Assembly: GCA_027604665.1 (NCBI GenBank)
Contig: JADGIZ010000025.1
Location: forward strand, 1-41,851
Source: Polyrhizophydium stewartii
Taxonomy: Eukaryota; Chytridiomycota; Chytridiomycetes; Rhizophydiales
Direction of reading: 5' to 3'
Length of the DNA stretch: 41,851 nt
Shown: positions 37,815 to 41,742 of the stretch, one piece after another
How the letters are laid out: the number at the start of each line of letters is the position of its first letter
Numbering within the stretch: the first letter of the stretch is position 1
Position numbers and translations under genes: made by a program
Notes under the pieces: model-generated
What the model was told of the DNA's origin: nothing
The model's input: only the letters and a program-made list of their open reading frames with translations
The model's database searches: none

Positions 37815-38878
37815 TCACGCCTCCTGCACCTTGGGCCTGTGCGGGTTGTTGCTGTGCAACCAGTCTCCGAGCCATTTCTGCAAGAGGCGTCAGCGCCGGC
37901 AGAGATGAAGCAGCGAGCCGCCGCGCACGCTCACAGTCGGGTTGGCGGGCTTTTCTTTGCAGAGCTCCGTCAGGCCCTGAAGCAACGTGGGATAGATGGC
38001 CGACTCGAGGAAGAGCTTGGCGTGCTCCATGGACGGGAGCGGATCGATAATGTCTGCCGTTCGCGGCGCAGCATCAGCCGGGCTGCCCGACGATGGCGGT
38101 GGAAACTCACGGCAGGCTTACTGTCAGGAAAGAAGAAGTTGATCTCGCGGCGCGCCGTGACGGGATCCTCGCTGTAGTGAATACCGTTGCGCAGCTCGTC
38201 CTTGCCAAACACTGCTCGCAGGCTACGCGCGGGGGGGGGGCTTGTCAGCGCGGTCGCGCTCGCTGCTGTGTCGCACCGACGTGGGCCTCGCACCAATCCG
38301 GATTGAGCGTGCGGCCAATGTCAGGGCTGCGAGGCCCGACAAACGCAGGGATGTCGTCGAACAGATTCTGCTTCTCGATGACCATCGCAAACACAGGCCC
38401 ACTTCAGCGAGAGGGCAGGCAGCCGTCAGCGACCGCGCGCCGGAAGGAGCCGCCTCCCCCACGCACCTGATGATGAATGCGACAAGCTGCGCAAAGCCGC
38501 CTTGGTCCATCTCCTCCTGGTAAAAGTCGGTAGCCTGCTCCTCGGAGAGCTGCACCGAGCGCTTCTGCTCGTCGTCGTCGTCGCGCATCGCGCGTGTCAG
38601 GCGAGCGCCTGCGAGCGTCAGATGCGTCCGACGCCTGCATATGCTGTCCGCGGCTGCGGCATGCTTCGGTAAGAGGAGCAAGGGGCAACGTGCGAACTTG
38701 CCTGGATGATCCTGTAACCGGCCTGCTTGAGGCGGGCTATGATTTCCGTCGCCCGCGCTGTCACGTCGGGCTTGATAACCAGCAGCGTGCGCTCCATCTT
38801 CGTTTGCTGGCTCAAGGCAGAGTGAATGAAAATCGAATGGCCAAAGGACATTACTACTTCACCCCAAGCGTCCCGCAT
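37815..38878 (-). CDS. NME5: NME5, ciliary nucleoside diphosphate kinase-like protein with Dpy-30 motif
   Basis: NME5 (RSP23 relative) is a radial-spoke-associated NDK-family protein. The NDK domain starts MERTLLVIKPDVTARATEII (ATG at 38797); in-frame ATGs at 38851 and 38878 would extend it by 18 or 27 residues. After a GC-AG intron it continues KRSVQLSEEQATDFYQEEMD, then GPVFAMVIEKQNLFDDIPAF, and after another intron LRAVFGKDELRNGIHYSEDP, REINFFFPD. The histidine of the NDK active-site segment is present, but the usual His-Gly-Ser is His-Tyr-Ser. The C-terminal Dpy-30-like helix pair reads SAIYPTLLQGLTELCKEKPA and KWLGDWLHSNNPHRP, diagnostic of NME5 rather than housekeeping NDK. TGA at 37815-37817. 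DNAI1 follows downstream. Confidence 0.93.
38231..38240 (+). repeat. G10 homopolymer in an NME5 intron
   Basis: Ten consecutive G on the plus strand (C tract on the coding strand), just before the acceptor that precedes LRAVFGKDEL. It may act as a pyrimidine tract and is also prone to sequencing slippage. Confidence 0.8.
38565..38701 (-). other. GC-AG intron in NME5
   Basis: On the coding strand the exon ends ATCATCCAG and the intron begins GCAAGT; it contains several CTGAC strings and ends GAGCAG before AAGCGCTCG. Splicing gives RIIQKRSVQLSEEQA, the expected NDK sequence. Confidence 0.75.
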
Positions 38879-38904
38879 CTTGTGTTCATACAGTTTCGCA
38901 CAAA

Positions 38905-38919
38905 GTCACCGTGAGAAAC
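38905..38919 (-). promoter_or_regulatory. RFX X-box-like site upstream of NME5
   Basis: GTCACC-GTG-AGAAAC on the plus strand fits the relaxed X-box pattern RYYNYY-N(1-3)-RRNRAC, a near-palindrome bound by RFX factors that control ciliary genes in animals and some relatives. It lies 27 bp before the upstream-most NME5 ATG. One match of a degenerate motif can arise by chance. Confidence 0.35.
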
Positions 38920-39070
38920 GGGAGACATGGCCAGAGCCGGCGACACCACGAACGCCTGCTCCGGGGCTGCTCGCCTTCCCTGCGACTGCCTGTACCCCAG
39001 AGTCTGCGACGAGTGCCGTTCATGTGCGATGGTCCGATCGCATGGTTTCTGAACCGATATCGCCCGGTCC

Positions 39071-39439
39071 ATGTCTCACAAGGTGCAGCAGGCGACAAGC
39101 GACACCGCCGCCCCTGGCGAGACTGCCCGTGCGGCAGCCACGAGTCGTGCTGACCGCCTGCTGTCTCGGCCACCGCCTGTGTCAGTCAAGCCGCAGCTCA
39201 AAGGCGCTGATCGCATGGTCGCCCCCAACTACGACGCCAAGAGCCTTGTCATGCCCTGGGGCCTCCGCCAATGCGGGCATTGCGACATCATCTGGTGCCG
39301 CGACAAGAACGCGTGCGTCAACATGCACTTGCGCGCCATATTTTACTTGCACCAGCCTCTGAAAGACAAGGATGACAGCCCGGTCGTCAGGCAAGACGGC
39401 GCGCCGTACTTGCGCCGTCGACAACACTCTCAAGCATGA
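39071..39439 (+). CDS. short spliced ORF ending in a TnpB/Fanzor-like zinc ribbon; probable remnant
   Basis: ATG at 39071 (MSHK) can be spliced over an intron (donor GTGCAG at 39083, CTGACC inside, acceptor CCGCAG) into LKGADRMVAPNYDAKSLV, PWGLRQCGHCDIIWCRDKNA, CVNMHLRAIFYLHQPL; the stop is at about 39437-39439. CxxC, a hydrophobic and aromatic stretch, then RDxNAxxN(M/I) is the hallmark of the C-terminal zinc ribbon and RuvC-III segment of OrfB/TnpB nucleases and their eukaryotic Fanzor relatives; the Asp of RDxN is kept. The unspliced frame also stays open. Nothing resembling RuvC-I, RuvC-II or the REC/WED parts was found upstream, and only about 190 bp separate this ATG from NME5, so it is probably a fragment, a decayed copy or a small derived gene. 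No flanking repeats were found. Confidence 0.5.
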   Translation: MSHKVQQATSDTAAPGETARAAATSRADRLLSRPPPVSVKPQLKGADRMVAPNYDAKSLVMPWGLRQCGHCDIIWCRDKNACVNMHLRAIFYLHQPLKDKDDSPVVRQDGAPYLRRRQHSQA

Positions 39440-39676
39440 TGTGCAGCTACTGTTGCTGTTGTTGAAGGGAGGCGGAGCCCCCCACTTTATTACGCATACC
39501 CCTGAGGCCTCACGAAGATGCGCAGCTACTGCTTCACACTCCTTGGCCTCGGTAAGGAAGCCGCAAGTGTGAATCAGCGCTACTCAAGGGTTTTTTAAAT
39601 TCATTGCACGACGGCGAGTTTCCGTGTGTTGATCAGGCGCCCGAGGCCGATTATTCATTGGTGCAATTCGGACCTT
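39440..39676. other. intergenic region between the TnpB-like ORF and SAD1/USP39
   Basis: No coding sequence is supported. TTTATT at about 39485-39490 (AATAAA on the minus strand) could be the poly(A) signal of the SAD1/USP39 gene, about 190 bp after its stop. A T6 run followed by AAAT lies at about 39591-39600. Confidence 0.35.
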
Positions 39677-41742
39677 TCAAGCGCGCGAGCCGACGCTTTC
39701 CCAGACCTGGATGTACGACTCGGACAGGATAATCATCTGCGCCATAATCTCCTCGACAAACAGGTCCTGGATCTGCAGCCACTGGTCCTTGGCTTTGGAG
39801 AGCACGTGGATCTTGTACGCGCCGTTGCCCGTTCCAGGCTTGCCCTCGTGGCAAATGTTGGCGACCAGATCGTACCGCGCGCTGTCGACGCCTTCGACAT
39901 ACTCGGCCATGTCCAGGTTCTTGATTGGGTAGTTGACGATGGTCGGGTTCTTTTCGAGCGAGTTCCAGTTGTTCTTGCTGAAGCGCTTGACGCAAAAGAT
40001 CAGGTACTGAGGCAGCTTGCTGATGCGGATGCGCTTGATGGTCGCGCCGCTCTCCTGCAGCCGGCGAAGGTGTTAGCAGCGCAGCAGCAAGATCGCATGG
40101 CGCGTGGGAAGCAGACAGACTCACATGAGGCGTGTTGCCGTCGTACTTGGAAAGCAGCGTGGCAAGCGGGACCTGCGGGATGATGTTCTTGTCGGCCTCG
40201 TCCGTGAACAGCGGCGGCGGCGGCAGATCGAGCGTGAGGAACCAAAACGGCGTCTTGGTGACCGTGACTGGGGATGCGGGTCAGCCGTGCTGCGTGGCTG
40301 CAACACGAGATTCAGAGCGCGAGTGTGAGCGTACCTTGAGGATTTTCCGAGTTGACGACGGGCATGCTGTCCTCGCCTGACGCCGCCGCGGTCGGCTGCG
40401 ACTCGATGACCAGCTCGCCCTGGAACGTCTTTTGCACGATGGCTGTGCGGAGTGTTGCATGTCAGCAGTCGAGACACCGCAAATAAGCCGGGCAGCAAGC
40501 AGCCTAGTCTTACTGGGCGGCCCGCCTTTCTTTGCGCCGAGACCCATGTGCAGGTTGTTGAGGAACCAAGACAGAAACTCGATCGGATCGGACTGCTCGC
40601 CGAGGCGGAAGCGCTTCTTGCTTGCATTCGAGATCTCCTGGATCAGCTCGTGGGGACTGACCTGTCCCTTGAATGCGCGCGGGTTCCACATCTTGCGGAC
40701 AAGGAGACCAAACCGATCGACTGCGAAGACGTCGTGGAGAGTTAGTTTCTTGCGTCGACAGGAGACGCTTTTTCGAGAGTGGGCTATGCCAACCCACCGA
40801 GCTCGGATCCCGTGATGTCGGCGTTGAGGAGGAAGTGGTTGCGCAGGGGTCGGACATGCGCAAAGGCCTGCACGATGACGTTGACGAAGTCGTTGGACTT
40901 GATGTTGTTGAGGCCGACAAAGCCTGCGCAGAGCAGCCGGTCAGCATCGAGCCGGCGCAGAGGAGGGCCGCGCCAGCGGCTCACCTGGCAGGTACGCCTT
41001 GTTGTTGAGGTCGTATGACTGCACCGCGACCGAGTCCAGCGTGGCGACCTGCGATTCGGTGAAGACCGGCCGGATCACAAACTGCAGCGAGAGCTTCAGC
41101 ATCCTGGGGTGCTGTGCACGCCCACGATCTGGCCGGCGATACCTTGATGTCGTTGAGCGACGCATCCATGACCTCGTGGCCGTCGGGCAGAATGTAGACC
41201 TGCGCAACGAACAGCACGGGGTCAGACCGAAACGCTCCTGCTGGCGGCCATCAGCCGCCGCGTCCGGGTTCGGGCAGGCGCGCGGCTTGCCTTGAGGGTC
41301 TGCAGGTTGACGAAGACGTGGTGGTCCTCGCTCATGCTGTGGATGTTGGCGTGCGACGCCTTGCTGCGACCTGCACGGGAGAACCGCCAAGAAGCGGCGT
41401 GTGCAGGCGGTCAACACGAGCTGCGTGCGTGCAGATGCGCAGCGCACGGACGGTGCAGCACACACCTTGGAAGTACTTGCCGCACACGAGGCAAGCGTAC
41501 ACGTTGTGGTTGCTCAGCGAGACCGAGCACAGCTTCTCAAAGTCAAAGTCGAGGCGGGCGCGGTTGATGGTCTCGAGGTACAGGCCGCGCAGCGCGTGCG
41601 AGCCGCTGCCGTCGGTGACGGTGGTGCGCACGCGCTTGACGCGCGCGGCCAAGGCGTCGTCGCCGTCGCTGGCAGCGCCGTTGTCGCCGTTGTCGCTGTC
41701 GTGGTCGTCGTCGGCAAAGGCCTCAGGGAGCTGTTCGACCAT
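39677..41742 (-). CDS. USP39: SAD1/USP39, non-catalytic ubiquitin-hydrolase-like tri-snRNP factor
   Basis: SAD1/USP39 helps the U4/U6.U5 tri-snRNP join the spliceosome. ATG at 41742 (MVEQLPEAFADDDH) gives a short acidic N-terminus, then LYLETINRARLDFDFEKLC and a ZnF-UBP domain (VYACLVCGKYFQG, then HANIHSMSEDHHVFVNLQTL). The USP-like domain reads FVIRPVFTESQVATLDSV, YLPGFVGLNNIKSNDFVNV, PLRNHFLL, then VSPHELIQEISNASKKRFRL and FLSWFLNNLHMGLG. The end reads YDLVANICHEGKPG, GAYKIHVLSKAKDQW and MIILSESYIQVWESVGSRA, TGA at 39677-39679. As in human USP39, the position of the USP catalytic Cys is occupied by Asp (NNIKSNDF), so no peptidase activity is expected. The intron at 41200-41290 is GC-AG. The first exon begins about 110 bp from the window edge. 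Confidence 0.93.
41200..41290 (-). other. GC-AG intron in SAD1/USP39
   Basis: On the coding strand the exon ends CTCAAG and the intron begins GCAAGCC and ends GCGCAG before GTCTACATT. Splicing yields NLQTLKVYILPDGHE, the expected join after the ZnF-UBP domain. Confidence 0.8.

Follow-up and report, generated by a model that had tools for sequence, protein, structure and literature searches.

The open reading frame (ORF) at positions 39071 to 39439 of the window (the whole 41,851-nucleotide stretch of DNA analyzed here) very probably lies in a Fanzor-type DNA transposon copy that is non-autonomous and almost certainly dead, in the genome of the chytrid Polyrhizophydium stewartii (order Rhizophydiales). 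Mosaic in structure and shortened by internal deletion, the copy in the window spans about 853 bp (38824-39676) and has recognizable ends and a nested insertion. It belongs to a repeat family whose other members carry the parts that are missing here, namely a RuvC-I-like DFN, the glutamate of an EHRTSK stretch and a first knuckle CSKC. It retains only the second zinc knuckle and the Arg-Asp pair, leaving both the catalytic triad and the zinc ribbon incomplete, and it cannot by itself act as a nuclease. Through its sister copies, a bare CxxC and RD tail that is invisible to profile libraries could be linked to a family of RNA-guided nucleases. The features of the element and its surroundings are as follows.

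38795-38797, minus strand: likely start codon of an NME5-like gene (context; partial NDK match of 23.8 bits, under the cut-off of 27)
38824-38864, plus strand: 5' end of the element copy (local alignment score of 23 to contigs C47 and C11, against at most 12 in 20 shuffles)
38950-39137, plus strand: segment common to short elements on C9 and C156 (70.7% and 71.7% identity)
39071-39439, plus strand: ORF of 122 aa from the ATG at 39071 to the TGA at 39437-39439 (from translation)
39133-39455, plus strand: final coding exon of the Fanzor-type family at the DNA level (blastn against the retrieved copies)
39144-39185, plus strand: possible 42-nt in-frame intron with CTGAC (from sequence)
39272-39283, plus strand: second zinc knuckle, CGHC (from translation; aligned in relatives)
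39299-39304, plus strand: RuvC-III-type Arg-Asp, RD (from translation; aligned in relatives)
39453-39516, no strand assigned: nested 64-bp insertion (15-bp duplication at 39438-39452 and 39517-39531, 14 of 15 identical)
39517-39676, plus strand: non-coding 3' end with conserved hairpins, a possible guide-RNA scaffold (3' end common to 22 of 29 copies; folds)
39677-39679, minus strand: stop codon of a USP39-like gene, abutting the element end (context; UCH domain in the last exon, E 8.5e-20)

On the plus strand, the frame 39053-39439 runs for 128 codons without a stop, and its translation, MPWGLRQCGHCDIIWCRDKNACVNMHLRAIFYL, holds the motif string CGHC-DIIWC-RD-KNACVNM, in which CGHC is followed five residues on by RD, both within LRQCGHCDIIWCRDKNACVNMHLRAIFYL. 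The initial annotation had recognized CGHC and then WCRDKNACVNM, and both are present; it had also not found the first half of the ribbon or the remainder of the nuclease. Upstream family exons have no blastn match in 38601-39900. The ORF lacks the structural cysteines that would form the first knuckle, and on its own it returned zero matches in Pfam, NCBIfam and PDB at E up to 10. Its description as a short spliced ORF, with a CTGAC-style intron taken as adaptation to host splicing, is not borne out on either count, since the frame is open unspliced and the 42-nt intron, while possible, is unnecessary. The single CTGAC of the frame lies at 39150, and the stretch matching 39144-39185 is read as coding in three of the four annotated relatives (P0008, P0009, and P0010; not P0011). 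Introns of the form GTAAGC..CTGAC..CAG do occur farther upstream in the family, in C553; they are absent from P0004 to P0007 and retained in P0003.

When the window protein was searched against the P. stewartii genome (12.86 Mb, 690 contigs), 32 rows were returned at E ≤ 10; 25 of these, with the window's own row counted, reached E ≤ 1.1e-11. Because 24 other genomic places match at this level and the DNA has relatives as well, the motif in the window is more than chance. At the DNA level, 38900-39680 matched at least 59 places (40 of 72 candidates scored), the relatives sharing 74-90% identity across about 300 bp, and from 31 retrieved stretches we oriented 31 copies, the one in the window among them. 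No internal stop interrupts 15 of the 24 other close protein rows, most of which are short tails too. A recognizable 5' end is present in 10 copies, and the 3' end is common to 22 of the 29 copies tested, with unrelated sequence after the last conserved bases. This multicopy state with a sharp common 3' end, followed by unrelated flanks, indicates carriage by a transposable element. Of the two alternatives that the initial annotation had offered, a decayed insertion within the narrow space between two genes is the one that the multicopy family and its defined 3' end favor. From the likely start codon of the NME5-like gene to the stop codon of the USP39-like gene the gap measures 879 bp, of which the element occupies about 853; the gene names NME5 and SAD1/USP39 are those of the initial annotation, the second backed by the UCH domain and the first by a sub-cut-off NDK match only. 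The NME5-like frame stays open upstream of the likely start codon and runs on into the element (38795-38905), making an element-derived N-terminal extension possible.

Under closer inspection, the copy in the window is composite. The first 14 bases of its 5' end fit the 5' end of other subfamilies at chance level only, and the C156 short element, with which it shares an internal segment, terminates in the family 3' end. The last exon is nearest to that of C468 (89.6% over 39160-39456 by blastn) and the 3' end resembles the C47/C608 subfamily, a pattern of sequence likeness that suggests recombination between copies. The 64-bp insert, which is missing from other copies of the element, occurs at 90-92% identity in at least seven other genome places and looks like a short mobile sequence in its own right. 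In a test for terminal inverted repeats, 4 of 10 copies had scores that no more than 21 of 200 shuffles equalled, but the stretches involved are not the same and we claim none; nor do we claim a target duplication, the candidates being T-rich stretches at either end and, at C553, a single match of 9 bases. Elsewhere in the genome, the family tail on C70 (L025) immediately precedes a gene for ribosome biogenesis, with which the gene model P0008 merges it (Rrp15p domain, E 2.5e-23), and a KRR1-like frame (E 4.5e-41) is found close to the C468 copy. A comparison of viral contigs with the family alignment gave 60 stretches that fit a pattern, none of which was confirmed.

The ORFs of copies C250 and C439 match seven and eight annotated P. 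stewartii proteins, 11 distinct ones, with P0002 identical across 56% of the query. The motifs of these relatives include CTMDFNRKN, GDxDxxHNSxGH, and EHRTSKCCSKCG, with CGHCDTIWCRDKNA in P0010, and in P0003 they run in the order CTMDFNRKNYVMIRI, VIGDADFQHNSRGHLTMPT, WVDEHRTSKCCSKCG. Both knuckles, the linker between them, and RD are present in P0010 and P0011. RD is missing from P0008, which has both knuckles and RCD in place of CRD, and from P0009, where Q replaces the glutamate, CSSSC stands at the first knuckle, and PD takes the place of RD. Counted on gene models, not transcripts, 163 residues separate the knuckles in P0010, 179 in P0009, 155 in P0008, and 82 in P0011. Two C2H2-like fingers in the 5' exon of some family elements (L022:5439-5747 and L043:5603-5935, both on the minus strand) give weak, sub-cut-off Pfam matches, and the gene model P0004, named C2H2-type, fuses such an exon to a nuclease part.

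These motifs can be set against published Fanzor signatures. Every part of the motif D-X(125,275)-[TS][TS]-XX-[C4]-X(5,50)-RD, as given in PMC3627910, is found in the family, spread over different proteins (P0003/P0004 and P0010/P0011), and none of the 11 proteins holds it whole; the D-to-TS distance is 246 in P0003, including about 20 residues of retained intron, and 226 in P0004, within the published 125-275. The arrangement described in PMC10711439, with the RuvC-II glutamate six residues ahead of the first CxxC, recurs as E-HRTSKC-CSKC in P0003, P0004, P0006, P0007, P0008, and P0011 and as E-HTTSKC-CSKC in P0010; at this position P0009 has Q, and the glutamate is absent in P0005. The DPG named there for RuvC-I is near exclusive in Fanzors, whereas the putative first metal site of our family reads DFN, DFD, DSS, or DLN. 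Asp-x-Asn at this site has a precedent, since SpuFz1, whose metal ligands are listed as D383, N385, E541, and D606, uses D383 and N385 (PMC10432273), and by its position the DFN site of the family appears RuvC-I-like.

With upstream exons as queries, the RuvC-I part was located on six contigs (C250, C553, C638, C6, C637, and C367), the last three of which were left out of the sequence reading, and the glutamate and first knuckle on eight (C439, C148, C70, C468, C80, C408, C86, and C155), two with damaged knuckles. No contig in this search of the assembly had both, and among the 11 annotated proteins and the loci of this assembly no single one seen carries all nuclease parts. The initial annotation had suggested looking for full-length copies, element ends, and a guide-RNA scaffold; of these, the ends were recovered, a full-length copy was not, and the hairpins at the 3' end are conserved without significant covariation.

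The TNB/OrfB zinc-ribbon profile PF07282 (TnpB/Cas12f; cut-off 26.3 bits) gave no match in a profile search of the P. stewartii genome. Four of eight unaltered exon frames matched it under the cut-off (E 0.0025-0.091), as did the unaltered proteins P0011 (the best, at 9e-5 and 23 versus 26.3 bits), P0003 (0.0037), P0004 (0.0041), P0006 (0.0094), P0007 (0.015), P0008 (0.016), P0010 (0.057), and P0009 (0.77), with no match for P0005. Once the linker was removed, three of three family ribbons rose above the cut-off (30.9, 34.9, and 26.9 bits; E 3.1e-7, 1.7e-8, and 5.4e-6), while none of five shuffled joined ribbons, with knuckle cysteines and Arg-Asp kept, matched at all. The TnpB/Fanzor reading of the initial annotation is supported by this match together with the glutamate and first knuckle of the relatives. 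The OrfB_Zn_ribbon profile that it had proposed for comparison is matched above cut-off by the linker-less ribbons of relatives, and neither by the unaltered relatives nor by the ORF in the window. In NCBIfam, two joined ribbons best matched Cas12f2 and TnpB models, far under curated cut-offs. A PDB search with one joined ribbon returned weak matches only, led by TnpB-type proteins (E 0.075-0.4) and followed by XPA and others; searches that used the unaltered relatives or a family profile returned no TnpB or Fanzor, only chance matches or none. An AlphaFold model of P0003 (mean pLDDT 44) was too poor for testing a RuvC/WED/REC fold.

As read from its gene models, the P. stewartii family is most probably a new chytrid Fanzor-type member with an unusual split ribbon; unusual are the long inter-knuckle stretch of four gene models (82-179 residues), DFN in place of DPG, and the conserved 3' hairpins. 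It is conceivable, if rather unlikely, that these traits mark a divergent, still active Fanzor lineage, with a ribbon split by a module of up to about 180 residues, a DFN site, and tail-only copies that act as guide-RNA sources. If split ribbon and tail-only copies do work, they would offer a test of how much TNB domain a Fanzor needs and of whether ghost copies supply guides in trans.

A related proposal, which we consider quite improbable, is that the copy in the window, as a ghost-type element that makes no nuclease, gives rise to a guide RNA from its 3' end; an active Fanzor encoded elsewhere would be loaded with this RNA and directed to targets that match the flanking sequence. For S. punctatus, PMC10432273 describes 134 ghost elements that lack an ORF, and an RNA of 88-90 nt that derives from the region separating the stop codon from the end of the element and extends 14-15 nt into the flank. 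Our copy retains this stop-to-end stretch at 39517-39676, but the nested insertion sits at its beginning and a locus with all catalytic parts was not seen in this assembly. In an alignment of 21 copies (the 22 minus C11), the helices pair in 93.8% of cells versus 30-53% when slid, the structure being derived from the same sequences, but covariation is not above shuffles (0.130 versus 0.132), folding z-scores of three copies are -4.66, -2.29, and -1.40, and the 3' end has no match in Rfam. The conserved hairpins as a guide-RNA scaffold are suggestive only.

Domestication of the ORF, the other alternative of the initial annotation, is not supported. A small zinc-ribbon protein derived from the last Fanzor exon would fit a frame intact across 123 codons with knuckle and RD retained, and also dN/dS values of 0.44-0.87 against 22 copies, in a full, wider alignment that is partly doubtful. 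Against the nearest copy, C468, however, 5 synonymous and 20 nonsynonymous differences over 87 codons give a dN/dS of 1.09, with no sign of purifying selection on the frame; intact frames are common in other, mostly short fragments as well; the first-knuckle cysteines are gone; and among 15 candidate annotated proteins of about 70-224 aa none matches the ORF at E ≤ 1. We therefore consider this scenario very unlikely. Six other copies compared over codons 41-127 gave 0.63, 0.77, 1.72, 0.76, 0.68, and 1.04. Since the parent would once have been under constraint, values below 1 in comparisons with other family members are to be expected and do not distinguish a relic from a domesticated gene. 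Across the family, the last exon has a median dN/dS of 0.73 over 209 pairs (ribbon part 0.665, tail 0.345), and in nine copies the glutamate and first-knuckle exon has a pooled value of 0.31 (25 pairs) and the linker one of 0.51 (35 pairs). An unrelated repeat whose frame resembles a Fanzor tail by chance is equally far-fetched, as the missing profile match of the ORF and the lack of a confident fold (pLDDT 44) would allow it, but TNB, TnpB, and Cas12f models match the joined ribbons and not their shuffles, and the glutamate and first-knuckle exon has evolved under constraint.

Under our preferred reading of a dead, non-autonomous Fanzor-type copy, the family parent would have encoded a RuvC nuclease with a zinc ribbon, which presumably cut DNA guided by RNA from the 3' end of the element. 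Internal deletion or recombination would then have removed most of the element, sparing both ends and the last exon with the second knuckle and Arg-Asp; the small nested insertion would have arrived after this deletion. A relative may have moved the copy via the shared ends, and the host probably makes no use of it.

In titles and abstract beginnings of the literature on P. stewartii, on Fanzor and chytrids, and on Polyrhizophydium transposable elements, no Fanzor is named for this species. Among known systems, TnpB of IS200/IS605 and IS607 shares with the joined ribbons a TNB zinc ribbon followed by the RuvC-III Asp; the family differs from it in being eukaryotic and intron-containing, with the glutamate beside the ribbon and NCBIfam matches far under curated cut-offs. 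Fanzor1 of Parasitella parasitica (PpFz1) is likewise fungal and has about 100 extra residues in its C-terminal half (FRI), but, compared by the description in PMC11423790, these lie in the RuvC domain and bind cyclophilin, whereas the extra residues of our family lie between the zinc knuckles. Fanzor1 of Spizellomyces punctatus also resides in a chytrid host, and PMC10432273 reports 42 full or partial loci and 134 ghosts. The P. stewartii family, known here from sequence alone, departs from it in that 30-nt inverted repeats were not found, no intact copy was seen, and the inter-knuckle stretch is far longer. Like our family, Fanzor1 of S. punctatus combines full or partial nuclease copies with short ORF-less ones and has an Asp-x-Asn first metal site, a Glu, and a last Asp; on its best account, the copy in the window is comparable to the ghosts and partial copies of that species.
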